From contig JAULBX010028947.1 of NCBI GenBank assembly GCA_032358255.1, positions 1 to 25,016 of the forward strand: DNA of 25,016 nucleotides, given 5' to 3'. The DNA is from Heterotrichella gracilis (taxonomy: Eukaryota; Sar; Xanthophyceae; Tribonematales; Xanthonemataceae). Both the position numbers and the translations under genes were made by a program. Under the pieces are notes generated by a model. It had not been told where the DNA came from. It saw only the letters and a list, made by a program, of their open reading frames with translations, and ran no database searches. This document shows positions 2,949 to 24,315 of this stretch, in pieces (within the stretch, counting starts at the first letter, position 1; every line of letters begins with the position of its first letter).

Positions 2949-5900
2949 TCATGACGCAGCAGCCCCTGCGACCATCCCCGCCATGTCCCCACCAGGCAAA
3001 ACTCCACCAGCCCCCGGTCCCACCACACCGCCACCAACCACCACCCCATGCGGTGCCGCATGCGCATGTGGACCCCCGTGCGCCCCCTCCCCCTCTCGCA
3101 GGTACCTCAGCGCCCGCAGGGCAGCACGGCCGGCGCGCGCCACACCCTGGCTAGGGTTTTGCGCCATCTTGAGCAGCAGGGGCACAGCTCCCTCGTCCAC
3201 TATCTCCATGCGCACCTCGTCGCTCCCCTTGGCAAGCTCGCTCAGCACCGAAGCTGCCGCCTCCTTGCCTGGGTCAGTGCCAAAGTACAGCATCTGCAGG
3301 GGCAGGGGGTAAGATTTAAAATAGAAGGGGCGAAGGAGAAGTTGCCTTGCCATGTCGGAGGGTTCAAGGGATTTAGGGTTCAAAGCTCAAGGCATATTGT
3401 GGAAACATGGGCATGGGTAGTGCGGGATGTACATGCCGTGCAGTGAGTGCATACTGCAAAACAAATGCACGATTTCCTGCACATTACATGGCATTGTGTG
3501 TAAGATACCAGCCACCAGGTGCATCATCTCATGTATGCACCTTGCCCCCTACACCCCCTCCATCTGCCCACCTGCACCAGGTGCGACACAGCGTCCGCCT
3601 CCACAATCTGCTGCTGGGCCGCATTGTTGTCAACAACCAGGTCCCAAAGGGCAGCAGCAACAGCCTGCCGGTATAAACACATGCAAGCATTGGAAAGAGG
3701 TAGAAGACAATTTTGAAATGGTGCACATTGTCGGTTCCCAAGGGCTACAGGGCAGCAGCAATGGCATGGGACATACAAGCAGCACGTCTGGACATTTCGG
3801 AAATTACAACAGGACTTTCGATGAAGCAACGTATACATTGGCGCTAAGATACGGACCTAGCACCAGTGGCGGGGGCAGTGACAAAGTAGGAGGAAAAGCA
3901 CTGCACAAAATATTTGCCTCCCGCGTATCAACACCCCCCTGTTCAGCGCTTCCACTAGCACAGGTGCCACCCCACCTCCAACGAATGAATGGTGTAGGGT
4001 ATTGCCCCAAGTTTAGGGTTTCCCTCACCTCGCGTGTGTCGTCATCCCCTTGCTCCAGCACCTCCACCAGCACAGGGATCACCCCCGCCTCAACCACAGC
4101 ATCCTGCAAGCAGGGGTGGCCATTACATTTACTTTGAGCTGCATGTATTACGGACAAACAGATTGTTTTTTGAAATTCTGTCTGACCGGTAAAACACAGG
4201 CCCAAACCTGCACTTCGACGCACGTACATTAAACCTTAGTTTTTCATTTCTACCCTCAAGTACTGCTATTTCCCCCCTGGCATTGCTTCAAGACGGTTGT
4301 GTCAGCCGGACACTACATTTTATTCCTTCCTTGTTACTGTAATTACTGATATTAATTGTTTAGGGTTTATTTTCCCTGGTATTGCGACATGCCAGCCGTA
4401 CCTGCGATGGCTCGCTGTTGCAGGCTATGTTAGACACTGCGCGTGCGGCGGCCTCCTTGCACCCCGCCTCCCCATATCGCAGCAGGTGCATGAGGGCGGG
4501 TATGGCTTGCTGGCATGCACGCTGGACCTCGGGGGAGTCGTTGTCGCACGCGATGTTGGCCACGGCGCTGCAGGGTGGGGTGGGAATGGGGTAAGGGGGG
4601 ATCATTCCAAGGGGAGGGAGGGGGTTGCGTGCTGGGGGGTGGGGTGCGGTTCTTCAAAGGGCGCGGGGAGAGCGCGTGGTGACATGCGTGCTGCACCATG
4701 AGGGGGTGGTTGTTGCACGCGATGTTGGCCACGGGTGGGGTTGGGGGTAAGGTGGGGTGGCAGAGGGGGAGGAGGAGGGGCTTGGAGGGCGTGGGCGGCT
4801 GTGGATGGGGGTGGAGGCACAGGCCCCATGAAACAGACAAAGAATTTAACTGCCTCTACAGAATAGACAAATAATATAAATGCCTCAATTTCTGACGTGG
4901 ACCTGTGTCAGGGACATCTGTGAATTACGGTAATGAATGTATTACAAACAAATAGAGAGGCATTTCCAGTCAGCGTCGTTTTAATAAAAAAATATATGTC
5001 TTTGTTTATTTTTTGGTCAGAGAAGCACCACTCACCGTGCAGACGCCTCCCTGCACACAGGCGAGCTCTGCATCATGGCGGCCACCAGCACAGGCACCGC
5101 CCCACACCGCACCAGCTCAGCCTGGTTGGCGCCGCTGCAGGCGAGGTTGGACAACGCACCGGCTGCCGCCTCCCGACTGGCTGGGCTGTGGTCGGGCTTG
5201 AGCAGGTCAACCAGCAGGGGCACCGCGCCCTGGCGGGCAATTTCTTCCTGAGACAGGTGAATGGGCAGTATTTTTCATAAGTACTTTTGTATATATGTTG
5301 AGGGACAACACAACAATTGCTTGAGCTTGCTACCGACAGAAAGCGGCACTAAAGTTCTCGCTCTCACATGTGGCTGTTCACAATTTAAGAACTGCCCTAC
5401 CGAGTTCTCGGTGCTCTTGACCAACAGGAAGCTCATCGCCTTGGCCGCTTCCTGCCTGCACCCCTCGCTGCCCCCCGGCAGGAGCATGTGCACCAGCAGC
5501 GGCAGCACACCACCAGCGGCGATGTCTGACCCAAAATGCTAGCGTGGAGTCCAACCCCCAATCCCTCAACCCTACATCCCAAATCCTCAACCTACCGAGT
5601 TCACTGTGCTCTTCACCGACAAAAAGCTCAGCGCCTTGGCCGCCTCCTGCCGGCACCCCTCGCTGCCCCCCGGCAGCAGCATGTGCACCAGCAGCGGCAG
5701 CGCGCCCGCGGCGGCGATGTCTGATCGGTGGCGTGCGTTGCGGTAGGCAAGGCTGGAAAGCGCATTGGCCGCAGCCCGCCTGGGGCCATCCTGCCCCTCG
5801 TGCAGGAGGGCAACCAGCAAGGGGATCGCACCGGCATCGGTGATGGCGGCCTGTAAGGGGGGGGGGGGGGGTCAACGGAAATGCTGGGTCGTTCTGTCAA

Positions 5901-8900
5901 GTTGGCGGGGGACAAATAAGGTAGGAGAGACTGCCCTTCTCTTTAACCACCCTTTTGTAACCAATGCCCATGTTCGAGACCAGGCCTCAACTTCGTTTAT
6001 TCTCTTCTCCTTTCTTTACTACATTTTAGTATTAAATTCTTCTCAGCCCCACCTCGATGCAATAATTCTACCACTTCATCTAATATAGTTTAAAATAGAT
6101 ATAATACATTAACCCCCACCTTGATGCTCTCGTGCTTCCCTGCCGCCAGGTGCTTGATGGCGCAGGCGGCAGCATGGCGGCAGCTGCCCACAGGCGACAC
6201 CAGCAGCCGGGTCAGCACCTCCACTCCACCGCCTGCCGCCACCGCCAGGCGGGCGTCATCTGAGCACGACAGGTTGCTGAGGGCCCATGCGGCAGCCTCC
6301 TGAGAGCTCCCGCTGCCCCCCTCCGCCATTGCCACCAGCAGGGGCACGGCTCCAGCGGCGGCGATGGCCACCTGGGGGGGAGGAGAAGGATATTTTGCTG
6401 ATTGTTTCAGGACATGCATGTTTCAAATGCTTTATAACAGGGGGGGGATGCCACCGCCAGCCTGGCATCATCTGAGCATGACAGGTTCCTGAGGGGCCAT
6501 ACCACTGCCCCCCTCCGCCATTGCCACCCAGCAGAGGGATGGCACAAGCGGCAACGATCGCCACCAGGGGAAGGGGGGGATAGGGTCGCTTGCTGATGTC
6601 CGGGGAAGTATTTAAAAGAAGTATTTAAATTTGGCTGTTGAACATATGCCGAGGCCTGCTGGAGCAATGCTCTTGGCGTCAAAGTGGTTCTAGCACCACG
6701 GGATCTGGTTGTCCTCCGAGTTGTAGGCCATGTTGCCCACCACCCCAGCCGCTGCCTGACTCCCCCAGGTTGTCCCTTGCAGGACCGGTGCCAGGATGGA
6801 ACAGCTCGGCGCCACGTGTTCAAGGTAGCCTGCTAGTCACGTCACTGTTCAGGGTTTAGGGTTTAGGGTCATACCTGGTTGTCCTCCGAGTTGTATGCGA
6901 TGTTCCCAAGGGCCGCCGCCGCCGCCTGGCGCCCCCCCTCGTTTGCCCCTAGCATCAGCTGCACCAGCAGCGGGATGGCGCCGCTCTTGGCTGTCTGCAT
7001 CTTGGTGAGGTTGTTGCGCCCAGCCAGGTTGCGCAGGGTGTATGCGGCCGACTGCTTGGCGCTGGGGGATCCCGACTCAAGCATGTGCACCAGGGCGGGG
7101 ATGGCGCCTGCAGTTTATTTCACCAATTGAAAAAGGTTGAAAATTGCTTGTCACTCACATCCAATTAGTCACCAGTCGTTTGATCACTTATTTGCTCTTG
7201 TGATGGTCTCTTGAGATAATGCTAGTACCATTTTTTTCAAGGAATACTTTATCCTGGTCCTTTGGGAACATGTCGCAAGGGGATCCCCTCCAGCTTAGCA
7301 ACCGCAGATGCAGTAGGTAGACTGCGATTGTGATTGCCATCCGTTCTCGGTCGGTGTAACTGTGACTGCGATTGCACCTATTCCAGGTGCATACCTGCGT
7401 TTGTTATAGCCAGCTGGTAGTCTGCGTGGTTGTATGCAAGGTTGGCCAGCGCCACTGCAGCAGCCTCCTTGTTGTCGATATTGTCAGATTGGAGCATCTG
7501 GACAAGCGAGGCGATGCCGCCCAGGCGTACAATCTCACCCTGCGCTGTGTAATCGGCTTAGGGTTTAGGGTTCAGGGTTCAGGGTTTAGGGTTTATGTTG
7601 ATGCCGCCCAGGCGCACAATCTCACCCTGTGGCATGTGATTGGCTTAGGGTTAGGGTTCAGGGTTTGGAGCTGCCTTTACTTTGAAGACAAAAGACACAG
7701 GTACACCCAACATATACATGTGTAGCTGGCACCGGATCCGACAACAATTTATGTATCCAAATACACTATGCAATAAACCTTTGCAACAGGGTACTTGCCT
7801 TGTTTGCGTCACTGTTGACCGCCAGGTTGCGCAGCGCCCTTGCCGCCACCTGCCTGCAGCAGTCGCTGCCACGCGCCACCAGTTGGAGGAGCACGGGAAT
7901 GCCACCCGCCTCCGCCACAGCCGCGCTGCAAGCAGGGAATAATATGAATACAACTTAAAATACGTGACATACAAGACCTGCATAGATGCAATAAGCAACC
8001 CGGTTTATTTACAGAAGAAGGGTAGGGCTACGGCAAAAAAATGCAGTGTATTTGCACTTGCAGTTTCGTACCATACATATAATCTTATAATAGCATACAT
8101 GACGTGACTTTAATAATCACTCCATCGCCGGTTGTGGCTGGCCAGGTAGCGCAGGGTTGATGCCACCAGGTTTTTGATCCAACGGTGGACCCCAGTGCGC
8201 AGGCTATACCCTTAACCCTACATCATGGCACACTCCTGTGCTCGGCTCCAAAAGCGTTTTAGTTCCCCTTAAACCCACACAATTCCTCACCGGTTGTGGC
8301 TGTCTCTGGCCAGGTAGCGCAGCGCCGATGCCACCAGGTTCTTGATCCAGGGGTCATCCCCTGTGCGCAGCAGATCCACTAGAGGAGGTATGACACCAGC
8401 GGCCTCAAGGGCAAGCTGCTGCTCCTTGGTCCCTGGTCACGGGGAGGTGAGAGTGGGGAGCGGCAAATTTCGTGTCACTTGAGCTTGGCTGAGGGGTTAG
8501 GGGGATGATATCGAAGGAGGGATTGGAACAGGAGGAAACAGGTGGTGCAGGGCGCAAGTGGGCCCAACCTTGTAAGCCTAAACCCCAACCCCCTGGGAAC
8601 AAATACCAGTGCAATATTCACTCATAAGCTTCAAAACAGCCCTCACCGGTGTCCGCCAGGTGGTTGACCAACACCACCGCAAACATCTGGTGCAGGCGGG
8701 AGGGACTGCTGATCCGAGCGGCCATGGACCCATAGTCGCTGGTCATCTCAAGGGCCTCTGCCTCATCCGGCGGCTGAAAGCTGGCGCCCGTGTGGGGATA
8801 GGGCAGCTCCCAGCCGGGGGTGGAAATTCGGGAGGAGCGCCTCCGGTGCAGGGGGCGGGTGGGGGTTGGTAATGGTGGGTTGAGGGGGCTGATTGCACCT

Positions 8901-8917
8901 GCCAGGGAAACATACAT
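2949..8917 (-). CDS. Armadillo (ARM) repeat protein, 12 exons
   Basis: Exons, 5' to 3': 8917-8647, 8432-8291, 7925-7799, 7539-7395, 7107-6875, 6371-6120, 5850-5596, 5247-5036, 4567-4402, 4103-4029, 3664-3572, 3293-2949 (TGA). Phases agree throughout and the total divides by three (771 aa). The body is a run of ~42-residue ARM units with the typical pattern GAIPLLVxLL...AAxALxNLA, for example AAGVIPPLVDLL, GGIASLVQMLQ, SGAIPLLVQLM, AAGAVPLLVAM, QGAVPLLVDLLKP and EAGVIPVLVEVL, about fifteen in all. The last exon ends in a Gly/Ala/His/Val-rich tail. ARM superhelices bind other proteins, and no enzymatic domain is present. The intron after 7799 starts with GCAAGT (GC-AG type). The start is uncertain: the first exon is open to Met at 8917, with further Met codons at 8746 and 8725, and the proline-rich stretch before 8746 may not be translated. 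Most introns hold degraded copies of adjacent exon edges. Confidence 0.85.
4695..4737 (-). repeat. Intronic copy of ARM exon start (exon 4567-4402)
   Basis: On the minus strand this encodes VANIACNN..., a near copy of VANIACDN... at the beginning of the exon that starts at 4567. It sits about 165 nt upstream in the same intron, in a G-rich plus-strand context. Confidence 0.75.
5396..5530 (-). repeat. Duplicated ARM half-exon with intact donor
   Basis: About 130 bp matching 5591-5722, the 3' half of ARM exon 5850-5596, with the donor GTAGG retained. The frame is still open and encodes AAGGVLPLLVHMLLPGG against AAAGALPLLVHMLLPGG in the exon. A CAG lies just before it, but splicing there from the phase-0 upstream exon would shift the frame. 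It is therefore more likely an intronic relic or an alternative end than a constitutive exon. Confidence 0.8.
6449..6567 (-). repeat. Degraded intronic copy of ARM exon 6371-6120
   Basis: The minus strand repeats the 5' half of the exon just downstream of it in transcription, including the region encoding LSCSDDARLAVA. It has internal deletions and frame breaks. The copied acceptor side (CCCCTGGTGGCGATCG) has lost the clean CAG/GTGGCC junction. Confidence 0.75.
6704..6761 (-). repeat. Intronic copy of the 3' edge of ARM exon 7107-6875
   Basis: The plus-strand CTGGTTGTCCTCCGAGTTGT block at 6705 repeats the block at 6875, followed by ~40 bp of weaker similarity. The donor GT is changed to AT, so it cannot work as a standard donor. 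Telomere-like repeats lie between copy and exon at 6851-6869. Confidence 0.8.
7600..7652 (-). repeat. Copy of the 5' edge of ARM exon 7539-7395, flanked by telomere-like repeats
   Basis: Positions 7600-7652 repeat 7512-7566 with a period of about 88 bp. The unit runs from inside the exon across the acceptor into the TTAGGG-bearing intron end. TTTAGGG/TTCAGGG variants fill 7559-7597 and 7645-7667 on either side. Confidence 0.85.
8129..8206 (-). repeat. Intronic copy of the 3' edge of ARM exon 8432-8291
   Basis: About 78 bp repeat 8291-8380 with a 6-bp deletion and substitutions. The donor is changed to GGCGAT. The copy ends next to the telomere-like CTTAACCCTA at 8211-8220. Confidence 0.8.
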
Positions 8918-9316
8918 ATACAGGTAAACGTGCTGTTTTTGAGTAACTGCCTTTGCTTGTCACGCATGCGCACACCTGGCGCCTGCCACCATGGGTGGGT
9001 CCGTGACCACTGCACCTGTACCTGACATGCAGACAGCATGTTGTCCTGTTTCATCAGATCCTGCTTGATCAAATCCACTACACAACATATTAGGCGCTCT
9101 GCATGAAGACCCTTCTTGGGATTGCAACTGTACTGCTGGGTTGGCATTTAATCACTTAGATAACAGACACATCTCAAAATCTCAGGTTTCCGCACCTGAT
9201 GTTGAAGGTAAGATTTGGCACCCAGCAGGCGCGCCAAGCGCACCCAGCACGTGCGCGGAGCGAGCACCATACAGCTCCGCACCCACGCTCCCGGACCGCC
9301 CGTGCGCCTCCCTCAC

Positions 9317-10118
9317 CGCTGCACTGCTGGATGATGCACTGCTGCCCCGTCGCAAGGTGGGGGTGGGTGCGTTCAGGCTGCATGCCCGGGCCAGGTGCGC
9401 TGCGGCGGTTTCGGTGGGGCAAGGGTTGGCCTCTGGCGCTGCTTCAATGCCAGCGATGAGCAGCTGTGACACCTGCAGCAGGGAGGAAGACATAGAAAAA
9501 TGTTATTATAAAGATAGTTGATCATCATCAAAGTGCTTTGCTTCATTGCCAGCGGTGAGCAGCTGGGACACCTCCAGCAGGCGGGAAGCAGCTTAGAAAA
9601 TACTTTGGGCTTATCGCGCAGCAATTCTGGACATTGTTCACCTTCCCCACAGCCTCCGCCACCTGCTGCAGCCCCGCTGCTTTGTAGGGCTTGTGTAGGG
9701 CAGCGCACTTTTACGATCTTTCTCTTTTCCTTGGCGCGTAAATATTATATATGCATATAGCACACATACCAATTGTGTGCAAACAAATGGCATGGCGTCC
9801 TCCTCCACCCAGCGCTGTGCCGCCTTTTGAGGCCTCTGCCTAGACCTCTCCCCCAAGTTTCAAACTTGCTTTCTGTGTTGCACTGTCGCATTGTTCTCCT
9901 GCTCGCTTTCCAAAAACAAAATAACCCACCTGTGTGAGGAAGAATGCCTGCACAGCGTCCTCCTCCTCCCCCGCCACCTCCGCTGCCTGCTGCAGCGCCT
10001 CCGCCTCCCGGCGCAGTGCCGCAGTGTCTGCCGCCCCCACCCCCGCGCGCACCGCTGCATCCATCACCAGCGCCACCACCCCCTCGCGCTCCACTTGCTG
10101 GCAGAACAGCAGGGTGAT
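9317..10118 (-). CDS. Two minus-strand exons of uncertain parent gene (NAA25 3' part or ARM 5' part)
   Basis: Exons 10118-9930 (63 codons) and 9472-9317 (52 codons) are phase 0 at both ends, with acceptors CCGCAG and CTGCAG and donors GTGGGT and GTGAGG. The first encodes a helical, Ala/Glu-rich stretch (VEREGVVALVMDAAV, then LRREAEALQQAAEV). The second begins VSQLLIAGIEAAPEAN and ends in a Ser-rich region. They follow NAA25 exon 10928-10713 in phase, but I do not see NAA25 landmarks such as the RGPYLA region that plant and animal proteins carry after the TPR half. They could instead be the N-terminus of the armadillo gene. The downstream partner is unresolved: joining to the acceptor TGTAG near 9078 in phase 0 gives Trp-Ile-stop. 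Both exons have edge copies in nearby introns (9540-9586, 9771-9835, 10190-10222). Confidence 0.45.
9540..9586 (-). repeat. Copy of the 5' edge of exon 9472-9317
   Basis: The plus-strand stretch around GAGCAGCTGGGACACCTCCA repeats the stretch ending at 9472 (GAGCAGCTGTGACACCTGCA), about 98 bp away. The acceptor-side sequence is included in both. Confidence 0.8.
9771..9835 (-). repeat. Copy of the 3' edge of exon 10118-9930
   Basis: The minus strand encodes VEEDAM...CTQLV, resembling EEEDAVQAFFLTQ at the end of the exon. The similarity is patchy but collinear and includes the junction. Confidence 0.55.
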
Positions 10119-10189
10119 CTGCGGTGCAAGGGGGGAGCCTTGAGACAATGATGCATGCGGCAAAAAGCATGCAACCATATAGTACTGCA

Positions 10190-10222
10190 TTGGACTTCTG
10201 GCAGACAGCAGGGTGGTCTGCA
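10190..10222 (-). repeat. Copy of the 5' edge of exon 10118-9930
   Basis: The plus-strand GACAGCAGGGTGGTCTGCAA here matches GAACAGCAGGGTGATCTGCG at 10104-10123, across the acceptor. A weaker third copy lies at 10240-10265 (GGACAGCAAGGTAATATGC). Confidence 0.8.
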
Positions 10223-10621
10223 ATGCAATGGGGGCAGGATAAAGGTGGCAGGACAGCAAGGTAATATGCACGCACACTAAAGGGGACAAGCAACCCTCCA
10301 GGAAGTTGTAGTATAATTACAGTGCTTTGCATGCGGCCACGGCCAGGCCACCCGCCTGCAGGCCATGTGAGACAACACCGGATCTCTGCCATGTGAAAGC
10401 CCCCCAATGCAATGGATCCTTGCTGTAGTAGAACCGCTCTCGCCCCCATCACCCACAATTCTACCGGCTGACTATCACCAATCACCCGCAGATTATGAAT
10501 GTGGCCAGAACCTCCACACCAACCCACCAACCCATCACCACCAGACCCCCCCACCTCCCACCTGCTCCAGCAGCTTGACCGTGACCTCCTCATGATCACC
10601 CCCACACCCCCACACCCCTCC

Positions 10622-10707
10622 ACCCACCCCACCACCACCACCACCACCACCACCACCACCACCACCACCACCACCACCACACCGCCACCACCACCACCAC
10701 CACCATC
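10622..10707. repeat. (CCA)n / (TGG)n microsatellite next to a splice donor
   Basis: About 75-85 bp of CCA trinucleotides on the plus strand begin 6 nt into the intron whose donor follows NAA25 exon 10928-10713. On the transcribed strand it is a GUG-type repeat directly after the donor GTGGGG. The long Val/Gly-rich minus-strand reading frame over it is a by-product of the repeat. Confidence 0.95.
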
Positions 10708-10712
10708 CCCAC

Positions 10713-13700
10713 CTGCTCAGCCTCCCTGAAGGGCCTCCCCTCTTCCAGCAGCAGCTCAGTCAACCCCCCCTCCACCCCCATCACGTTGATTGCGTGCTCG
10801 GGCCCTGGGCGCCAGGTGGCGGGCAGGCAGCAGTCGATGTAGCGCTGCCAGCTGGCCCAGTCATCGGGGTTTGCCAGGATGGCAGTGCGGAACACCTCAG
10901 CTGCCGCCGCCAGGTCACCTTTGCGCATCTGCACGGGCATAAATGTTAAGGGTTTAGGGAATAGGATAAGGGTGTTGCAAAATTGGCCCTGCGGAATATT
11001 GGTGGCTGCAGATCCTCGACCCAAACCCCGAATCCAATCTGCCAGTAGTCGGGACTTGAACTGGACTGAACCTATGTTCGGACATTTTTACATGATTCTT
11101 GTACCCCCAAATCCTACCACCAGCTGCATGCGGATCCACCCAAACCCTTAGCAAACCCTACAACACGGGACCCACACCACCAGTAGCTGCCCCTGGATCC
11201 ACCAAAAGTCCACTTTGATCCAACCCCCACCAGGAACCATGACCCCAACCTTTGGCACAAACCCTAAACCCTTGGCACGAACCCTTACACCAGAGGTTGC
11301 TGCCCCTGGATCCGCAATAGCTCATATTCCATCAAAACCCTAAAACCCGTAACCATAAACCCTAACAGCTGCATCACACGCACCAGTAGCTGCCCCTGGA
11401 TCCACCGGAACTCGGCCTCGATCGAAACCACGCCAGGAACCTTGGCCATGACCTCCAAAGCTTCCTCGAATTTCCCCCTGGCCTGCAGGATGTCCAGGTA
11501 CAGCAGCAGCTCCTCAAATGTGTGGAATTTGCCCCCCGCTTTCTGCACCTGCTTGTCTGCCATGGTGTGCGCTAGCTGGAGCAGTGTGGCCAGGGGGAGC
11601 GTGGTAGGTAGTCCTGAATGGGTGGGGGTTAGGGTTTAGACGATAGGGTTTAGGGTTTAGGAGTGTGCGCCAGCTGGAGCAGTGTGGCCAGGGGGAGCGT
11701 GGTAGGCAGGCCCAGCAAAACCTTACACCCAAAACCCCAAGGGCTCCACGCGCCTTGCGCCTGCAGCACAAGGCTCATGATGACCCACAAAACACCCTAT
11801 TCACCCTGCTGTAAACCCTACAAGGGTTCCACGCACCTTGCGCCGCTGCGCGCGCCTGCAGCACCATGCTGGTGATGACCCACCAGGTGTACAGCGCCCC
11901 CTCTGACCCAGCAAGCTTGCTCAGCTTCTGCGCCACCTGCTGCTGCTTCACCCATTCGCCCTCCCTGGGACAGGGAACACACAAACGAGGATTTGAAAAA
12001 TCGATACACAAAACACCGGGGATTAGGGAAGCGTTTGACTCAGATTCTGCGCCACCCGCTGCTACTTCACCCAGTCGCCCTCCCTGGGATGGGGAACACA
12101 AAAAATGGGGATGGGTATTCACGACATTGACTCCATCACAGCTGCTTGCCCCAGATATGTGGATTGAAATGCAGCCGAGAGCTGTTGCCCCCCATTGTTG
12201 CATTGTTGCTGCACTGTTGCATGTGGCATTGGGTTGTCATTTGCTCTGCATGTTGAGACATACCCAGGGGATGCGCTTTGCGATGTGCAAGCATGCAGTC
12301 AGGACGCCACCGCCATCAAACTCGTTGGTGGTGCCAAGGCCTCCAGATCACACCACATCATGATGTTCACAATGGCCTACATATGTGAAGAACCAATGCC
12401 CGCATGCATGTTTAGCGTCTACACCCGCCGCGGATTTGGCGACTACAACTACAACTGCAATTGTGATCGTAAGTGCGCCACACCCTTACCTGTTGTATGC
12501 CTCAAACAGGCCCTGCAGGATGGCCACATCCTTGGTCCACCCACCCACAGCCATGCACAGTACGGGTTGAGGAGCATATTTCTCACTCTGATTTTGATGA
12601 TGAGTGTCACCAGCATACCTGGTGTATGCCCCAAATAGGCCCTGCAAGATGGCCTCATCCTTTGGCCTTGCCTCGGCAGCCGCAGCATAGGATGCGGTGA
12701 TGTCTCCTGGCCGCTCCACTGACTTGAGCACCACGCTTAGGGTTGACAGCACATCGATATCGGTGGGGGTGGCGCGCAGGATCTCGTCCGCCAACTGCAC
12801 AGGGGAAGTTGGGTGGGTTGGCATGTGCGTTCCGTTGGGAGGGGTGGTGGGAGCTTGCTTTGTTGGGGTGGAGTTTGTAGCCGGCTTGGGCATAAGGGGT
12901 GGTGGTGCTTGTTATTGCGCACCTGGTAATCCTTACCTGTTCCACTTTGTCGTCATTTCCCACGCACAGCAGGCTGAATGAAACATGCATTTCTTCGGAG
13001 CAGGTTTGCGCAGGTCACCATGTCACCCTCGCTTGCTTTAAACGGTAGGTTAACGGCTTCCTGTTTGTGCACTTTGGCCCAGCGTGAATACAGGCCAGCG
13101 CCCTGGGCAGTTTCCGCCATGGTCCCGATTACCTGTTCCGCTTCATCGTCCTTGCCCACGCGCAGCAGGCGGAAGGCATAGGTGATGCGGTGGATGCTAG
13201 GTCTAAACCCTAAACCCTCAACACCACCCTGAGGGTCAACAGTTGCTCATCCACAAAGCAGGAATGCCGCGCAAGGGTCTCAACTGCCAAGTGCACAGGG
13301 GGTAGTGGCAGCGACACGCAGGGGGTGGAGGTGGTTGTGCAGGTGTCAGACTACCGTTACCTGCTCCGCTTCATCGTCCTTGCCCACGCGCAGCAGGCTG
13401 AATGCCTTGAGCGTCTTGATGTAGTCGTTTTTGGGGTACTTCTGGAGCGCCGCATTGGCGTGCTTGATGGCAGCCTGTAGAATGCACCATACACACTCAA
13501 TAACTCCCCCAGGAGACAGCCCAATCACCCGAACAACACCCTCCCCCAAACACCCCCCCAAACCCAGTCGGCCCGCAACCATCCACCTCTAACCAATTAC
13601 CCAACCAGCAGTTGTGCTTGATGGCAGCCTGGTTGCACTCCCAAACCAATTAAACAGCCCCAGCGACCAACTAATACTATCAACCCAATACCCTCTACCT

Positions 13701-14026
13701 CGCCTTTCACCCAGTCACGGACCACTCTTAAGGGGGTCACTAGGGGGTCACTCATTCACAGCATTCCTGATGCGCCTGCTGTTCGTCTCACTAGTCAAGG
13801 CGATCAGCCCCATCACTCCGTCAGTGCACTAGAGATGAACATATGTAGAATGCCCACAACCTTGTCTACCAACATCTCCACCTCTAGATGCATGCATGCC
13901 ACTTGCATGCATTGTAGCATGGGTTTTGCGATTCAGGGGACATCTTTTCCTCACCTTGTAGTTCTGGCACTCTAGTGACTCGTGGATCAGGCCGATCTTA
14001 CGATAAGCTGCCTCCTGAGAGGACAT
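10713..14026 (-). CDS. NAA25: NAA25 / MDM20: auxiliary TPR subunit of N-terminal acetyltransferase B (N-terminal half)
   Basis: Exons, 5' to 3': 14026-13955, 13474-13361, 12794-12619, 11964-11837, 11613-11384, 10928-10713. Together they give 312 codons in consistent phases (0,0,2,1,0,0), starting at ATG 14026 (MSSQEAAYRKIGLIHESLE). NAA25 is the non-catalytic subunit of cytosolic NatB. It anchors the NAA20 catalytic subunit to the ribosome, and NatB acetylates nascent Met-Asp/Glu/Asn/Gln N-termini. Family landmarks in order: a first TPR with AALQKYPKNDYIKTLKA, LLRVGKDDEAEQ, ATPTDIDVLSTLS, the conserved VKQQQVAQKLSKLAG, FEELLLYLDIL...GKFEEALEVM, RWIQGQLL, and ILANPDDWASWQRYIDC. These match plant NAA25 closely. 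The family is usually 900-1,050 aa, and no C-terminal half was found here apart from the two uncertain exons at 9317-10118. A 27-nt in-frame segment (EVTVKLLEQ) near 10566-10592 could be an extra micro-exon, but its acceptor is poor. Confidence 0.88.
11176..11330 (-). repeat. Two intronic copies of the 3' edge of NAA25 exon 11613-11384
   Basis: GTAGCTGCCCCTGGATCCACC recurs around 11183 and a variant (GTTGCTGCCCCTGGATCCGC) around 11296, matching the exon end at 11386-11406. The first copy also keeps the following block that encodes part of EAEF and PGVV. Telomere-like CCCTAAA variants lie between the copies (11260-11275, 11335-11363). Confidence 0.85.
11662..11712 (-). repeat. Copy of the 5' edge of NAA25 exon 11613-11384
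   Basis: GCCAGCTGGAGCAGTGTGGC and the following GGGGGAGCGTGGTAGG repeat 11571-11609, about 98 bp away. Telomere-like TTTAGGG repeats at 11629-11660 separate the two copies. Confidence 0.9.
11736..11806 (-). repeat. Copy of the 3' edge of NAA25 exon 11964-11837
   Basis: The plus-strand block CTCCACGCGCCTTGCGCCTGC and the following ATGATGACCCAC repeat 11828-11885 with a 9-bp deletion. The reverse complement of the junction still reads AAGGCGCG, so the donor GT is changed. Confidence 0.8.
12026..12095 (-). repeat. Copy of the 5' edge of NAA25 exon 11964-11837
   Basis: Positions 12043-12095 repeat 11927-11979. Both share the acceptor region, plus-strand TCGCCCTCCCTGGGA, and the exon portion encoding GEWVKQQQ. 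The copied acceptor CCCAG/GGAGGG is intact, so it is a potential decoy upstream of the true one. Confidence 0.85.
12486..12540 (-). repeat. Copy of the 3' edge of NAA25 exon 12794-12619 with functional-looking donor
   Basis: The minus strand encodes VAILQGLFEAYNR followed by GTAAGG, parallel to EAILQGLFGAYTR followed by GTATGC at 12619. The spacing is about 126 bp. Its donor is, if anything, closer to consensus than the one I chose. Confidence 0.85.
12934..13175 (-). repeat. Two copies of the 3' edge of NAA25 exon 13474-13361
   Basis: The block encoding LLRVGKDDEAEQ, plus its donor, occurs at 13361-13405 (exon), again at 13130-13175 (RVGKDDEAEQ followed by GTAATC) and again at 12934-12980 (LLCVGNDDKVEQ followed by GTAAGG). 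The third copy is the most diverged. Telomere-like CCCTAAACCCT lies at 13206-13218 between the first two. Confidence 0.9.
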
Positions 14027-15055: not shown

Positions 15056-18000
15056 ATGGGGTCAACCCTTGTTGTGGGATGGCTGCTGCTCGCCATGGCC
15101 GCACAGTGCAGGTCCGCATCAAGTTCGTAGGTTTCGTGCACACCCCTTTACCCCAACCGGGCGCACCTATGACCGTGGCTGAGGTGACGGTCGTTGCTCT
15201 CACCTGTAAAGCGTGTCTGCACCAACCCACGTGCAGGTTGTCACACTTTGCACAATGCACACATTGTCAGCTACGTCTAAAGTCTTAGGACCCTAAACCA
15301 CATCGTACTGAACGCAAACCAATTGCACCGCCTCTACCCCACTGCCAGGGTGTACACTTGTGTGGGGTTGGGGTTGGGGGTGGGGGTGGGTACCAGGCAG
15401 CAGCACCAGGTACTTGGCCCTGTTTAGGGTATTGGGGGTTAGGGTTCAGCCCTCCTATCACAAACCAACACCTACCCACTTCCACAAGGGTACCCCTGAG
15501 TCATTTCACACTCCTCTATCACTGCGGCAGGTCCTGCAGGGGCCAATTGACACTGAATGCCACTAAGAAAACAAGCCTCTCACTGATACACACTCGTGTC
15601 TGTGCAGTGGCCAGCAGCAGTACTACACCCCCGTGTCATTTACCAACGTGGCGCCGCCGCTATGGGAGTCGGGGCCGATACCCCAGGCTGTGCAAAGCAG
15701 CATGATCTTCAACGACTCCAAGACCTTTGTGTGAGTGCCCGTTAGGGTTTTGGATTATGGCGCAGGGGTTAGGGTTTAGGGTCGGGGCCAATACCCCAGG
15801 CTGTGCAGGGCAGCATGATATTCAGCGGCTCCAAGACCCTTTGTGAGAGTGCCCTTTAGGGTCTAGGGATTAGGGTTTTAATGGCAGGGCCAATAACCCA
15901 AAGCTGTGCAGAACCTCTGTAGGAACTCCAAGCCTTTTGTTCCAGTGATTGCATTTTCCCCAACAGGTGTGTATCCTAAAAAGACCCCCATGCTCTCGCT
16001 GCCGGCCCTGAACTGGATTTGCAAGTGCGCACCATAGCCCAGTAGCACACCCACTACAAGACAAGGCCACACGAATAGCAGAATGACAGAATAATGATGA
16101 ACAGCGCGTACTCCTGCTGTCCAAAGGGCACTGGGAAGCACGCGCACGAGTTTACCTCCCCGTTACTTTTCATTGTAGGGACATGCCCCTCAAGGTGGAC
16201 CCTGTGGCTGCTGTGGACAGCTTCAACAAGCTGCCGGGATCACAATCATCCCCACCTAACATCCCCAGGGCCCAGCTGCAGCAGTGGCTCAATGCCACTT
16301 TCGAGCCTGTGGGGAGGTACGCATGGGTGCTGGGGGCGATGCATGCCTGGGATGAATGTACATTATTTGACCAATACATGGGTCGAAATGTACTTGCATC
16401 GTCATGAGGGAAGGTACTGATTTGATCAGCATCTATGTGGGGATACGATTACCCCCGCGCATGCAAGAGTGTCGTACATGCACATAGTTAAATGCATCCA
16501 AGTGGATGTGTCCAAGCGTTCATCTCTCTTCATAGATCGTTGCTGTCTGGAACACCAACCATTTGGCCAACTAATCAAATAATCCATTCACCATCTGTGC
16601 AGCGATCTGGAGAACATCACGGTTCCTGGATTTGTGCCCGAGCCTCATCTAAGTCGATTAATCAACTAATCAATGAAGCAATCAATTAATGAACTATATA
16701 CAATTATTCACCGCATGTGCAGTGACTTGGAGAACATCACGATGCCTGGATTTGAGCCTGAGCCAGCTGATTTTCTTCCAAAAGTGACCAATCCCGACAT
16801 CCGGACCTGGGCCCTGGACATCCACCAGCTCTGGGGACAGCTGGGGAGGCAGGTGGGATTGACAGCATCCCAGGAAATTGCTGCATTGAACGCCTGGACC
16901 CATGTGCATGCCCAACCTAAACTCATCAGCCGCTACACGAATCGCGTGAGTGTCAAGTACTTAAGTGACCCCTAGATTAAGGTCTAGGCCTAGACCTTCG
17001 CCAGCTCTTGAGGAGGGCACTGGAAAGGCACTGGCGTTAAGAGCATCCCCAGGACATCAGGTTGCACACCTGAGTGTGCTTACCCGACCCCAATGATCTG
17101 TGCCAACATTGAGAACCCTAGTACTGACCCTAGCTTGTGGTGCAGGTGCCTGACAGGGTTCGTGAGGAGGAGGAGCGCAATACCCTAATCTGGGTGCCAG
17201 ACCCTATGGTGGTGCCGGGATCAAGGTTCAGGTGAGGCTCAAAAGTACTTGCAAAGTGTTAGTACTTGCAAAGAGATTTCATAAAGGAAATCAAGAAGCC
17301 AGCTGTCCAACCCCCTCCCATGAGGACCATGTTTCGCCTGGACCTGCAATACAGAACAGGTTTTGCCTGATGTGTCACATGTCATGTGCCAGTTTCCATC
17401 TCTCATGACGTTTCATTGTCAACGACACATACCTCATGTGCACTATGTCTATGGCATTTCCTGATTCACGTATAAGTACTGGGACATCCACATACCAATG
17501 CTTTCCCCCATTGTCAATCCCAGGGAGGTGTATTACTGGGACAGCTACTGGTCCATCAAGGGGCTCCTGGTGAGCCAGCTCCCCGAATTGGCCACAGACA
17601 TTGTGCGCAACCTCATGTATCTGCTGGGGAAGATTGGCCACATACCCAACGGCAACCGCATCTACTATGAAAACAGAAGGTGACGCATTACATGCATGGG
17701 GCTGGCACGGTGGTAGGGTGTAAGTTTCTTGCACATCAACAAGCTCTAGGCTGGTTTAGGCTGCTTTTGGTGAGTCACCTGCCTGAATTGGCCACATGCC
17801 CAACGGGAACCGCATCTACTACGAAAACAGAAGGTGCGGGTTGCCTCGCACGCTCATGGGTATCTAACAGTGGTAAGGATTAGGATTTCATGCAGCCCTC
17901 ACTTAGCTTCTGGGCATGCCCTGTTTGAAGGTATCATAACACGTCCACTGGCTTTTGTTACTGACCTAATTACACCCCCTGCGGCTAGCCCCCCTCCTGA

Positions 18001-21000
18001 GCCACATGAATTCAGTCATTGGCGCCTACACACGAAACCACCACCCTACTGCAGAATATACTTGTTTTTGCTTACGGACTTCATTCCATCCCCTGCAGCC
18101 AGCCACCCCTCCTGAGTCACATGATCTCCGACATCTACGCCTACACACAAAACACATCCCTGCTAGAAGATGCCCTGCCCCTGCTGGTCCAGGAGCACAC
18201 CTACTTCACAACCCCACCCAAGGGTTTGACCCTGATCGATGCCAACGGGTCAGCGCACCACCTCAGCAGATACTATGCCAACTGGACGCAGCCCAGGCCC
18301 GAATCCTACAGGTGAGCTAAACCCTGGCGCTAAATCCTAAACCTCACCTAAGGGTTTGACCCTGGTGGGTGCCAATATGGGTCAGCGCACCACCTCAACA
18401 AATACTACGCCAACTGGACGCAGCCGAGGCCAGAATCCTACAGGTGAGCTAAACCCTGGGGCTAAACCCTAAACCCCACCTATGGGTTTGACACTGGTGG
18501 ATGCCAATATGGGTCCGTCCACCACCTCAGCAGATACTGTGCCAACTGGACGCAGCCCAGGCCAGAATCCTATAGGTGAGCTAAAACCCTGGCGCTAAAG
18601 CCCTGAACCTTAAACACCTGGAAACCTGAACCTGGAAGATCGAACCTGGCAAATTTCTACAAGAAGAGCCACTCCCAAAGTAAATTTGAAGCAAAATCTG
18701 ATGTCCACTCTGGAGATGCTGGGACTGCCGCAAGCCTGCCGTCCAACCCCAAACCAAAGAAACTAAATTCGAAATCCTAAACCCCAAACGCTGAACCCTA
18801 CACCCCGTACTTGCAGGGAGGATGCTGACACTGCCACAAGCCTGTCCCTCGATCAAGCCCAGCAGCTGTGGCGCGATCTGGCCAGCGCTGCCGAATCGGG
18901 CTGGGATTTCTCTTCCCGATGGTTGGCCAATCAGACTGACCTGAAGACCATTCGCACCACCAGCATCATTCCAGCCGATCTGAATGGGTTTTTGTATCAG
19001 ATGGAGAGGGATATCGCCAGGTTTGCAGGTGGGTGGGTGGAGGGTGTGGTATCTACCCTATCTAAGGGTATTGGGAACATGCGAGGACCTAGGGTTAGAA
19101 GCGATGGTGTCATGAGCTAGGACGGCTCTCGCATCTTCGCCAGTGCTCTCCTCATCCAAAAGGAACGTGTTTGGGCATAAACAGCAGACATTCAATTCAG
19201 CTGTCATCTTCTGCAGATGAGACTGGCCAGGAGAGCCTGGCTGATGACTTCACCCGGCTGGCGGATGCAAGGCAGCAGGACATGATGGCGCTCATGTGGA
19301 ACGAAACCACAGGTAAGGTTTTGGCGGGGCTATGGTACTTGCACCACAGACCACACAAAGGATGGGGCCATTGATCAGGGTCCACAGCTGGGATGTGAGC
19401 ACACAAAAGTATTATGGACGCACCTATTGCTGATGTAAATATCTGTTGCTCCAAATTTAATGCGATATTCTGGCATAGTTTGAAGGCGTACTTATTTATT
19501 CACATATTCACATATTTTACCTTCGCATACGACCCTTGCTTACAACCAGGGTGGAAAAAGGCGGCGGTAAGCTTGCTGAATAATGTTCATAGACATTCGT
19601 ATGTATCTAGATTTTCACAGCTTGTGTGGGTGCAGGCTACTGGCACGACTTGCTCCTGACGGGGCCCCCAAGCGGCCCAGCAAATGACACATGGCACACA
19701 TACCAGCAGCTGCCGGGACCATACCCATCAAACTGGGTACCGCTGTGGTACGTCCGTGTACATGTGCGGTGTACACATTCAGCATTTTGTGTGTCCATCA
19801 GACGTGTGCCGTCTTTTTATCAGCAGCCTTCCCAGCAGTCTTTGTATCAGTAGCATTTGTCCTGACACTGTTTACATCATGCCTGCACTATCGGCTGCCA
19901 TTGAGTCGGCAGGGCAGCAGGCAACATGGCGCATACATACGAGCAACTGCCAACCAGTACCAAATGTGGTAAACTGGGTGCTTTTTTATAGGGTGGTGCT
20001 GTTCATGTGCTCTGCAGTTGGCATTCCAGGATCGGCAATTTCTCCTTTCAAAATCACAGGAGGTTTTGTCCCCAACATGATGGTGGCTGCATGCCGAGAT
20101 GTCTAGCTGGCTGCTCACAGCGCTCTGCAGTTTAGCAATGGCTTTGCACTCCAAAGTAGAGTGCAAAGCTAATCAATGTCCTGCACTCTAAAACCCTAAC
20201 CCTGAGTGCCCCTGTCTCCCCTCAGGACGGGCCTGGTGGCTCCTGAGAGCCCCCAAGCACTGGCGGCGGTCACCAGCCTGGCAGGATCGGGCCTCATTGG
20301 AGTGGGAGGTGGGTCCATGCACTCGCACTGGAACTCGAAATCCAAATTGTGATGTCCACTTGTAATCGAGCTCTGTCTTTTTGTGGTGGTTCATGCAGTG
20401 GTTTGGTGCTAGATTAGGGTGTCTAGGGTTTTGGGTAGGGATTTCGGTCACCAGCCTGGCAGGATCGGGCCTCATTGGAGTGGGAGGTGGGTCCATGCAC
20501 TCGCACTCAAAAGTCCCAATTGGGATGCATGCACTTGCTTGTCCTTGAGCTCTTTCTCTACCTGTTTGTGGTGGTTTAAGCCGAGGTTTTGGTGCGAGGT
20601 TAGGGTGTAGGGTTTTGGGTAGGGATTTCGATCACCAGCCTGGTAGGATCAGGTCTCATTGGAAAGGGCGGTGGGTCATGTAATGGAGAACGAGGGATTC
20701 AGGTTCTGTGCAGCCTGTCCATAAAGCACGCAGTGGTCTTTTCGGTTGCGTTCAGGCATCCCCCTACTGCCCCCCCCCCCCCCCAGGGCATCTCCACGCT
20801 CCCTGCTGTCCACTAGAGAGCAGTGGGACTCCCCCCTTTGACACATACACACCCTCGTCCTCCCCTTTACCCCCCACAGGCATCTCCACCTCACTGTTAG
20901 ACACTGGCGAGCAGTGGGACTCCCCCAACGCCTGGCCACCCCTGCAGCACATGATGATAGAGGCGCTGGACATGTATGGAGGTGGGTGAAGCCACTGGTT

Positions 21001-21926
21001 AGGGTTTAGGTGTGTAGAATTTAGGTTTTAGGGTTGACAATGTACAGCACATGATGATGGAGGCGCTGGACATGTACGGAGGTGGGTGAAGCTGCAAGTG
21101 TATTTGCAAGTGCATGTGCCTGTAAGGGGTGGCCAACTATTCAGAGTTTTGAATCTCTACGCGTTAGGATATGCATTTCACGAGTCTGGGATGAATTTTG
21201 AATGAAACCCAGCTTTCCGCCACCTAGCTTAGGGCAATTCTTAGGGCAGCTGTTGTTCTTGTAGCTTTGTCATAATGATTGTAACTTTGTCATAATGATT
21301 GCGGTGCCAGCAAGAACTGAACATGCTGAAAAGAAAATGCACGTATTAATGTACCAACCCTACACGCAGGCTCCACCGGCCGCCAGCTGGCACAACAGCT
21401 TGCCGCCACCTGGCTGTATTCCAACTACGAGGGATACATGGACCTCAACCGCACCATGGTGGAGAAGTGGAGCGCACTCTCGGTGGGCAGGCCAGGGGGC
21501 GGGGGCGAATACGCGGTGCAGGTAGGGTGGGGGACAGGGCATTTTCTTAAATTCCCAACTCTGCAATGCGTGTTTTTTCATTCTTTGTTTCCGGCAGGAA
21601 ATTAGTCTGAACCTGCCTTTTCCCAAAACCCGCTTGAAAAACATAATAGCAGGTGCGAAGCGCACCACAGCATTGCTGAGGGTATTCCCCCGGTTAAGAG
21701 CCACACCTTCTCCCCCAAAACCCTAAAACCCTAGACGCTAATTTGACCCTCGTGTGCTCTCCTCCCCTTGCAGAAAGGCTTTGGCTGGACCAACGGGGTC
21801 GCTCTCGATCTCCTGGACCAGTACGGGTGGCAGCCTGATCTGGTGCCCCTGGCGACGCGGGTGGCAAGGGGGGCAAACGCGCTGGTGCCTGGGGAGGGCG
21901 TAGCCACTACATCGATATCGGGCTGA
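15056..21926 (+). CDS. TREH: Trehalase (alpha,alpha-trehalase, GH37), secreted, 14 exons
   Basis: Hydrolyses trehalose to two glucoses. Exons: 15056-15111, 15608-15730, 16179-16316, 16723-16852, 17146-17231, 17524-17679, 18099-18311, 18817-19028, 19217-19312, 19636-19747, 20226-20308, 20880-20981, 21370-21521, 21774-21926 (TGA). All phases agree and the sum, 1,812 nt, gives 603 aa, close to animal trehalases. Exon 1 encodes a signal peptide (VVGWLLLAMAAQC), so the enzyme should enter the secretory pathway. Signature 1 is PGSRFREVYYWDSYW (residues ~173-187), with Ser where the family has the second Gly. Signature 2 is QWDSPNAWPP (~480-489). The catalytic acid Asp lies in GWDFSSRW (~331), the base Glu in GGGGEY (~549), and GFGWTNGV follows (~555-562). 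No C-terminal anchor is seen. Exon 1 has an unusual donor (GTCCGC) and is the least certain exon. Confidence 0.93.
15767..15940 (+). repeat. Two copies of the 3' edge of trehalase exon 2
   Basis: The exon end encoding GPIPQAVQSSMIF...KTF (15681-15730) recurs at 15783-15844 and, more diverged, at 15887-15935. The first copy has an extra base before TTTGTGAGAG, so its donor frame differs. TTAGGG-type motifs stand directly before each copy (15767-15781, 15857-15876). Confidence 0.9.
16595..16645 (+). repeat. Copy of the 5' edge of trehalase exon 4 with intact acceptor
   Basis: TGTGCAG followed by a block encoding SDLENITVPGFVPEP precedes the true exon (SDLENITMPGFEPEP) by 120 bp. The copy's frame reaches a stop about 20 codons later. 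The spacer is AT-rich with repeated AATCAA motifs (16651-16705). Confidence 0.9.
17760..17835 (+). repeat. Internally deleted copy of the 3' part of trehalase exon 6, donor retained
   Basis: The copy reproduces the block around CTGAATTGGCCACA, then jumps to CCCAACGGGAACCGCATCTA and ends AACAGAAG followed by GTGCGG, like the exon end at 17679. The missing ~60 bp in between is bounded in the exon by two direct repeats of TTGGCCACA (near 17589 and 17633), consistent with deletion between short repeats. Confidence 0.88.
17976..18040 (+). repeat. Copy of the 5' edge of trehalase exon 7
   Basis: The block with CCCCTCCTGAG, CACATGA and GGCGCCTACACACGAAA parallels 18102-18150 in the exon. An acceptor-like GGCTAG stands in the matching place. 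The spacing is about 113 bp. Confidence 0.85.
18217..18612 (+). repeat. 132-bp tandem triplication across the donor of trehalase exon 7
   Basis: Unit 1 is the last ~95 bp of exon 7 plus the first ~37 bp of the intron. Units 2 and 3 follow directly, with exon-like ends at 18443 and 18575, each exactly 132 bp after the previous (true end 18311). All three donors read GTGAGCTAAA. Units 2 and 3 share a 2-nt insertion (GCCAATATGGG for GCCAACGGG) that shifts the frame. Telomere-like CTAAACCCTAAACC lies in the intron part of the unit. Confidence 0.95.
18700..18746 (+). repeat. Copy of the 5' edge of trehalase exon 8
   Basis: GGAGATGCTGGGACTGCCGC and the following AAGCCTG match GGAGGATGCTGACACTGCCACAAGCCTG at 18817-18845, about 108 bp downstream. 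The acceptor is not clearly preserved. Confidence 0.85.
20268..20700 (+). repeat. Triplication (178 and 184 bp steps) across the donor of trehalase exon 11
   Basis: The block from GGTCACCAGCCTGGCAGG to beyond the donor recurs at 20446 and 20630. Copy 2 is identical to the exon for about 60 bp (20268-20327), including donor GTGGGTCC. Copy 3 has diverged (exon-like end 20670, donor GTGGGT). The intervening intron sequence, including TTTTGGGTAGGGATTTCG, is also repeated, so this is a true tandem array and not isolated echoes. Confidence 0.95.
20756..20835 (+). repeat. Copy of the 5' edge of trehalase exon 12 with intact acceptor and in-frame stop
   Basis: A C16-type polypyrimidine run ends in CAG at 20786, followed by GGCATCTCCACG and later GAGCAGTGGGACTCCCCC, matching 20880-20926 in the exon. 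A TAG falls in frame after eight codons, so use of this acceptor would truncate the enzyme. A shorter CAGGCATCCCC fragment at 20755 may be a third trace. Confidence 0.88.
21036..21090 (+). repeat. Copy of the 3' edge of trehalase exon 12 with intact donor
   Basis: TACAGCACATGATGATGGAGG through GGTGGGTGAAGC repeats 20944-20993 about 95 bp downstream, with only a few substitutions. The two copies are separated by TTAGGG-type motifs (20999-21035). Confidence 0.92.
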
Positions 21927-24070: not shown

Positions 24071-24315
24071 CAGTGCCAGCTTGTAGGTACCCAGCTCATG
24101 TTCCACGCCACCTTGCACCAGCGTGAATGCCTCACGCTATAATACAGGTGTGATCACCTTCTATACCATCACGATGAACGCGGCAGCACCACTGTGGGTA
24201 TTCAACCATTCGTGTGATGGTATAGAAGATGATCACACCTGTATTATAGCGTGAGGCATTCACGCTGGTGCAAGGTGGCGTGGAATATGAGCTGGGTACC
24301 TACAAGCTGGCACTG
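24071..24315. repeat. Near-perfect inverted repeat, 102-bp arms, 41-nt loop
   Basis: The left arm 24071-24172 is the reverse complement of the right arm 24214-24315 with two mismatches in 102 positions and no gaps. The outer ends are CAGTGCCAGC and GCTGGCACTG. The loop is 24173-24213. In plus-strand RNA one mismatch is G-U, so the stem would be almost continuous. I see no target-site duplication at the outer edges and no coding capacity. It could be a foldback/MITE-like element or a small-RNA hairpin locus. Confidence 0.95.

Follow-up and report, generated by a model that had tools for sequence, protein, structure and literature searches.

Three genes with echoed exon edges

The 25,016-bp stretch analyzed here (contig JAULBX010028947.1, or C642, of the Heterotrichella gracilis assembly GCA_032358255.1), hereafter the window, holds three genes whose introns carry partial copies, or echoes, of the adjoining exon edges. 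The genes encode an armadillo-repeat (ARM) protein, an NAA25-like TPR protein, and a trehalase (TRE). We built their exon models by hand, and all three models are open across every exon join (12, 8, and 14 exons, respectively).

The trehalase gene (15056-21926, forward strand) has GT-AG at every join, and its product matches the solved trehalase 7e9u in the PDB (E = 3e-125) over residues 55-149 and 179-607, which independently fixes the "real" exon side for most trehalase exons. Exons 1-7 lie at 15056-15111, 15608-15730, 16179-16316, 16723-16945, 17146-17231, 17524-17679, and 18099-18311, and exons 8-14 at 18817-19028, 19217-19312, 19636-19747, 20226-20308, 20880-20981, 21370-21521, and 21774-21926. 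Among the best 120 of 5730 protein matches, the best-scoring record is labelled Cannabis sativa (38% identity); the next named ones come mostly from Myrmecia, Trebouxia, Elliptochloris, Coccomyxa, and Symbiochloris (43-46%), all of them trebouxiophyte green algae, and a JGI protein matches at 49%; on these matches, the source resembles a green alga. The ARM gene (2953-8898, reverse strand) scores E = 4e-98 against Pfam Arm; the first exons and the last boundary of its model are uncertain, and it probably contains a GC-AG intron at 7797-7798 (AAG/GCAAGT). The identity of the NAA25-like gene (9200-14026, reverse strand; 3' end of the last exon uncertain) is more weakly supported than that of the other two, and is suggested by one homologue, from Chlorella variabilis, with a precomputed NatB domain (PF09797) and by TPR repeats in our Pfam scan, in which no Nat auxiliary-subunit family scored above the cut-off.

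Exon edges are copied into the adjoining introns

We detected echoes by a self-BLAST of the window, repeated with telomere-like runs masked, and called a pair near when its copies lay within 400 bp, with E ≤ 1e-3 as the cut-off in the masked self-comparison. The window contains 27 such direct pairs, or 25 once redundant ones are dropped, and all but one of the 25 fall within the three genes. Of these 24 genic pairs, 22 comprise an exon edge (the real copy) and a wholly intronic echo; the other two pairs (12933/13129 and 20444/20628) are third copies of exon edges already paired. This confirms the exon-edge echoes described in the initial annotation, which had reported at least 20 degraded copies in the same genes, and self-BLAST recovers them in place, 22 of them exon-anchored. 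The dimensions it gave (30-130 bp, copied 80-250 bp away) agree with ours, namely aligned lengths of 30-136 bp for 22 genic pairs and of 159 and 248 bp for the remaining two, which are tandem arrays, and copy-to-copy offsets of 87-228 bp in the genic pairs. Echoes occur, as it claimed, at most introns, if only just (17 of 31), and at 22 of the 62 intron-facing exon edges. The junction GT or AG, which survives in about half by its estimate, is retained in a larger share (14 of 22 echoes) and is lost or unalignable in eight; the 14 would be candidates for the decoy splice sites that it inferred.

The real copies are mostly exonic, with 26-134 exonic bp (median 47) in the 22 families, and intron contributes 0-27 bp in 19 of them and 39 bp in another; in the last two, which are tandem arrays, it contributes 104 and 148 bp. 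Some echoes form genuine tandem arrays in which exon edge and intron repeat together, a feature absent from the earlier description. Summed over the 22 exon-anchored echoes, the offsets come to 3066 bp, out of 12048 bp of intron in the three genes, in line with the earlier proposal that introns are being lengthened; if each echo and its spacer were added sequence, the contribution to intron length would be substantial.

In trehalase, the 3' edge of exon 12 (real copy 20945-20992; 37 bp of exon and 11 bp of intron) is followed by a telomere-like spacer (20993-21044), with TTTAGGG reading outward from the exon, and then by an echo (21045-21092) that the self-comparison finds 95.8% identical to the real copy, with the GT retained. 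The 5' edge of the same exon (real copy 20879-20926) is echoed at 20787-20835, AG retained. Further single echoes lie at 15783-15854 (exon 2, 3' edge, GT lost; real copy 15670-15740, telomere-like spacer 15741-15782), 16586-16644 (exon 4, 5' edge, AG retained; real copy 16706-16764), 17787-17836 (exon 6, 3' edge, 94% identity, GT retained; real copy 17633-17682, no telomere run detected in the spacer), and 17947-18038 (exon 7, 5' edge, AG lost; real copy 18060-18153). Two edges are present in three tandem copies each: the 3' edge of exon 7 with CCCTAAA-like DNA (18210-18609; period 130-132 bp), and the 3' edge of exon 11 with the start of its intron (20267-20677; period about 180 bp), where a telomere-like run separates the copies.

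On the reverse strand, the NAA25 echoes of 5' edges lie at 9539-9600 (exon 8; real copy 9440-9499), 10194-10234 (exon 7; 10093-10135), 11663-11712 (exon 5, 94% identity; 11565-11614, with a telomere-like spacer at 11615-11662), and 12039-12104 (exon 4; 11920-11985), and those of 3' edges at 11173-11244 (exon 5; 11375-11447), 11757-11788 (exon 4; 11852-11883), and 12487-12533 (exon 3; 12616-12662). The 3' edge of exon 2 (real copy 13357-13405) has two successive echoes within 12933-13177 (12933-12978 and 13129-13177), with a telomere-like run at about 13201-13230.

The ARM gene, also on the reverse strand, carries echoes of 5' edges at 4674-4734 (exon 9; real copy 4505-4565), 6450-6565 (exon 6; 6238-6372), and 7600-7629 (exon 4, 97% identity; 7513-7542, with a telomere-like array in the spacer at 7558-7595), and echoes of 3' edges at 5398-5529 (exon 7, GT retained; 5593-5724, with a telomere-like spacer at 5530-5592), 6705-6766 (exon 5; 6875-6936), and 8125-8202 (exon 2; 8287-8370). 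A telomere-like run beside exon 5 (6848-6868) is exceptional in pointing inward. The echo at 5398-5529 falls within an open frame; judged by eye, its exonization through the nearest AG would add 125 nt and shift the frame. Weaker candidate echoes, seen by eye and left out of the counts, occur at about 3942-3985, 9790-9835, 13612-13640, 18711-18750, and 19905-19985. Past the trehalase stop codon there are weaker direct pairs at 21944-22239 and 22543-22810, of which only the former reached E ≤ 1e-3, and they suggest that the duplication may extend outside introns.

The duplications recur at randomly chosen loci

To the window we added 22 further stretches, picked by contig number and blind to content, for 225.6 kb in all. 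These stretches yielded 77 further direct pairs within 400 bp. Two of them, L006 and L007 (contigs C100 and C145), contained zero direct pairs and zero telomere-like runs; they have 35% GC and long bacterial-looking open reading frames (Bacteroidota-like by eye only) and are probably a contaminant or an associated bacterium. Without these two, the sampled sequence amounts to about 180 kb, and the 77 pairs found in it bear out, for the sampled loci, the recurrence that the initial annotation had inferred for the genome.

In window and sample together, direct pairs within 400 bp outnumber inverted ones by 104 to 14, and 13 of the 14 inverted pairs are self-overlapping palindromes; farther apart than 400 bp there are 14 direct and two inverted pairs. 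Dinucleotide shuffles (five per locus) gave no direct pairs and six inverted ones. This self-alignment with a shuffled control, a check of the kind that the initial annotation had proposed, returns 104 direct pairs against 0, and chance similarity is rejected. An assembly artefact is unlikely, given the wide spread of pair identity (about 69-100%) and the lack of direct pairs in L006 and L007, which belong to the same assembly. Templated insertion by polymerase theta is expected to leave copies in both orientations. The copies here are direct, with a single non-palindromic inverted pair against the 104, and theta-type templating is accordingly disfavored; from the earlier phrase "short templated or tandem duplication", the short direct duplication at exon edges stands and such templating does not.

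The echoes affect unrelated genes, as indicated by a Pfam search of 20 of the 40 real-copy frames from the random loci, in which six frames scored above the cut-off: two exons matched HSP70, and the others Las1, DNA polymerase subunit B, RCC1, and a helicase domain. The other 14 frames had none, and their exon status rests on splice-site scores. At the random loci, the open frame was longer in the real copy than in the echo in 21 of 40 comparisons (p = 0.10), which does not tell the two apart.

Telomere-like DNA separates many of the copies

DNA resembling the TTTAGGG repeat, which is a reported telomere motif of Chlorella and Coccomyxa (PMC12636532), often separates the two copies, a link that, like its orientation, the earlier description had missed. 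In the window, (TTTAGGG)2 is matched 61 times when up to three mismatches are allowed, against 1.8 expected. Telomere-like DNA makes up 4.7% of the bases in the window's introns, 0 of 5596 bp in its exons, and 1.0% outside the three genes; within the introns, its share is 7.7-13% within 50 bp of exon edges and 1.4-5% deeper. In the whole assembly (68.5 Mb, 903 contigs), 834 exact (TTTAGGG)3 matches (overlaps counted) compare with 0 for the reversed control, and in the 225.6 kb we found 113 degenerate runs versus eight for mirror controls. Fifty of the 113 fall inside the span of a pair ±50 bp, a territory of 12.7% of the bases, and 63 have no detected duplication.

In 85 of the 96 non-redundant pairs the spacer measures 20 bp or longer, and 36 of these 85 spacers contain a run; when runs were rotated within their loci, the mean was 6.1 and the largest of 1000 trials 16. 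Telomere-like density is 14.7% in spacers, 3.2% in the 200-bp flanks, and 1.2% overall. Run presence declines with pair age, from 16 of 24 pairs at ≥90% identity, through 8 of 23 and 10 of 25, to 2 of 13 below 79% (Spearman 0.29, p = 0.007), so that telomere-like spacers characterize a large minority of all pairs and a majority of the young ones. Some of the youngest pairs have a spacer of near-pure telomere motif and unrelated DNA past the echo (L019:5888-6021; window 20945-21092); in other young pairs, the run recurs after the second copy, making a tandem unit that contains the run. We found no element common to the spacers: a comparison of 82 telomere-masked spacers gave seven cross hits, of which six involved overlapping or chained pairs within a single locus and one, of 23 bp, linked two loci.

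The pairs are anchored at splice junctions and the runs point outward

For the random loci, we trained a donor/acceptor model on the window's 31 + 31 splice sites and sought a site within 20 bp of the spacer-facing end of each copy. A splice-like site of the predicted kind was present in 43 of 71 pairs, versus 21 under random placement (maximum 32 in 300 placements); in the same pairs, opposite kinds at the same ends gave 16, and the same kinds at the outer ends gave 19. At ≥88% identity the site was found in 20 of 24 pairs (null 7), and below 88% in 23 of 47 (null 14). A detection bias toward exon edges is expected, as exon-internal events are purged by selection and intron-only pairs decay on both sides. 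Our simulation of this bias, a simple one with uniform ages, placement on present-day genes, and families treated as independent, predicted that about 0.30 of pairs would touch an exon, versus 22 of 22 families in the three genes. Because the simulation falls short of the observation, and because young pairs at random loci are still anchored, we take the anchoring as real rather than as a detection artefact. The initial annotation had argued that ordinary tandem exon duplication should be rare; this is answered in part by the abundance of such duplications here and by the expected loss of exon-internal ones through selection, a filter that alone, in our simulation, leaves the absence of purely intronic families from the three genes unexplained.

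We could tell the exon side for 62 of the 96 pairs (four were ambiguous and 30 had no called splice-like site). Where both this side and a spacer run were placed, TTTAGGG reads outward from the exon in 24 of 27 pairs (p = 5e-5). The ratio of GGG to CCC in spacers is 183:2 with the exon on the left and 24:164 with the exon on the right, and spacers read in the outward sense contain 37% G and 14% C (56 pairs). Echo-free introns here likewise begin G-rich and end C-rich, so the outward orientation is partly a general property.

Across the whole assembly, a donor-like AGGTGNG has GGTTTAGGG in the next 30 bp 1622 times and CCCTAAACC there 1005 times, the reverse order (GGTTTAGGG, then AGGTGNG within 30 bp) occurs 465 times, and an acceptor-like TGCAGG is preceded by CCCTAAACC 1271 times and by GGTTTAGGG 784 times, in counts that include overlapping matches and extend beyond true splice sites. 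Backward-read controls of these five patterns gave 22, 9, 41, 0, and 8, respectively. Among the matches listed, the donor-pattern places include series spaced 88-113 bp apart (C26:62996/63084/63176 and C11:65635/65748/65861), apparently arrays of the same kind elsewhere in the genome.

A possible origin in break repair, and its alternatives

We propose, with a probability of roughly 0.45, that the echoes are scars of recurrent local duplication of exon edges, coupled to the insertion of telomere-like DNA through the repair of staggered breaks. In such an event, (i) two offset nicks would form, one just beyond the boundary of the exon and its partner roughly 45-50 bp within the exon; (ii) fill-in of the overhangs would duplicate that exon edge; and (iii) telomere-like DNA (TTTAGGG repeats and variants, of which TTCAGGG and TGTAGGG occur in spacers) would be added by telomerase, or captured, at the join, giving the order exon edge, spacer, echo. 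The exon's own splice site would stay in place, so that splicing would filter the outcomes, with an event at the edge tolerated and an exon-internal one lost. Some units may later have expanded to two or three tandem copies by slippage or unequal exchange, and all would decay.

Several observations weigh against this proposal. No run was detected in 49 of the 85 spacers, young ones included (window 17633/17787; L004:704/891; L018:8788/8992). A second run lies within 40 bp outside 14 of the 36 telomere-bearing pairs, and seven pairs have a run only outside, which fits the duplication of a unit that already held the run. Runs occupy 12.5% of the 20 bp to the right of the second copy versus 2.6% to the left of the first, for which we found no explanation. 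The run is no nearer to the real copy than to the echo (14 versus 10 pairs, three ties, p = 0.84), and the idea that telomerase is primed from the exon-side end found no support in these distances. Finally, break repair as proposed leaves unexplained why breaks should fall at exon edges.

The most serious rival, somewhat unlikely in our estimate, reverses the order of events: G-rich telomere-like tracts would already lie near exon edges and stall replication, and fork restart, through slippage or template switching, would duplicate the edge with part of the tract. Slippage deserves this weight because some tandem units include the tract, or carry a run after both copies (18210-18609; L005:2717-2952; L016:7734-7925; L025:5570-5756). 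The outside runs just described fit it as well, as do the concentration of runs near exon edges in the window's introns and the known instability of interstitial telomeric tracts (review PMC6410037). It accords less well with the 22 of 36 telomere-bearing pairs that have no detected outside run, or with young pairs in which the sequence past the echo departs from the spacer (window 20945/21045, L019:5888, L011:4987-5134). It also predicts intronic duplication beyond the tract, and the only two non-exon pairs in the genes are third copies of exon edges.

Random short tandem duplications would be a simpler source, with the edge bias left by purging and by intronic fading, and telomere-like DNA a bystander microsatellite. 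Exon-internal events must indeed be purged and intronic copies do decay on both sides; moreover, duplications that are short and local abound in rice (Vaughn and Bennetzen 2014, as summarized in the review PMC7407515), and some of the 30 pairs without a called splice-like site may be purely intronic or intergenic. We nevertheless judge this explanation unlikely, given the simulated 0.30 against 22 of 22, the splice anchoring of the young and least faded pairs (20 of 24), and the enrichment and orientation of telomere-like runs within spacers.

Selection on splicing, which we consider improbable as the whole account, would let random duplications survive where a G-rich spacer after the donor, or a CCCTAAAC-like spacer before the acceptor, favored the real site, with telomere-like DNA acting as an enhancer or branch point. 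It would draw on the outward orientation, the outward-sense composition of the spacers, the G-rich starts and C-rich ends of echo-free introns, and the genome-wide bias of 1622:1005 at donor-like and 1271:784 at acceptor-like patterns, and it could yield the orientation without a directional mechanism. Alone, it neither makes the telomere motif nor explains the short intronic part of the duplicated segment.

The insertion-like layout, with direct repeats on both flanks, would suit a mobile element or introner that leaves long target-site duplications; we reject this as very improbable, since the 82 masked spacers share no common sequence, and target-site duplications are usually far shorter than 30-130 bp. 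We find it scarcely credible that the echoes serve repeat proteins as functional exons, whether additional or alternative, as the open frame and retained GT of 5398-5529 in the gene for the repetitive ARM protein might suggest: they are partial exon copies, they also occur in non-repeat genes (trehalase, and exons of HSP70, Las1, and DNA polymerase subunit B), and in 8 of 22 cases they have lost, or cannot be aligned at, the splice dinucleotide.

A bolder form of the break-repair proposal, which we regard as doubtful, is that telomere-coupled repair targeted to exon edges is a main engine of intron growth in this lineage, its outward repeats supplying G-runs on the donor side, or pyrimidine and branch-point sequence on the acceptor side. 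If so, the damage would bring its own splicing protection and would hence be tolerable in gene after gene. How introns grow and how new splice signals arise are long-standing questions. Here, scars of graded age that bear a telomere signature and favor one orientation lie at the splice junctions of many genes, and through them it becomes possible to test how break repair and telomere addition are linked to intron evolution. For annotation, echoes in an open frame with an intact GT or AG could be mistaken for exons.

Comparison with known duplications and insertions

We did not find the combination of duplication, telomere-like spacer, and exon-edge anchoring in the literature searched; each ingredient has a precedent. 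Table 1 of Nergadze et al. (2007; PMC2246262) reports duplication with telomeric insertion at double-strand breaks for 6 of 130 loci in rodents and 4 of 25 in primates. Like those insertions, the arrays described here are short internal telomere runs, some of them with flanking duplication; duplication is the minority outcome there, and the run-bearing duplications here are numerous, sit at exon edges, and have the run pointing outward. In rice, patch-mediated tandem duplication at staggered breaks (Vaughn and Bennetzen 2014), as described in PMC7407515, is likewise short, local, direct, and tandem or partly so; our pairs share these properties and are rarely inverted, and they differ from that description in the telomere filler and the exon-edge anchoring.

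In potato, a tandem duplication across an intron-exon boundary created a new intron in the case presented by Ma et al. (2016; PMC4974935). Ours also span the boundary; in contrast to that case, they extend existing introns. Intron gain of this type would give the new intron a 3' splice site that lies within the second copy and adjoins the exon downstream; all 22 echoes overlap 0 bp of the exons of their own gene. Similarly, whole-exon duplication would copy both splice sites, and all 22 window families copy only part of an exon. The unstable interstitial telomeric sequences treated in PMC6410037 resemble our arrays, as tracts in introns and genes that expand and rearrange; exon-edge echoes set ours apart from the passages of that review concerned.

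Other features of the window and assembly

RuBisCO large subunit (PF00016) gave no match in the whole assembly, so either chloroplast contigs are missing or the gene is lacking. Across the loci other than L006 and L007, TGCATGCA is over-represented (77 occurrences versus 17 expected under a first-order model). A (CAC)n microsatellite lies within an NAA25 intron at 10597-10713. At 24071-24315 there is a long inverted repeat of 245 bp, 90% self-complementary and with a predicted RNA fold of about -218 kcal/mol, possibly a foldback element.

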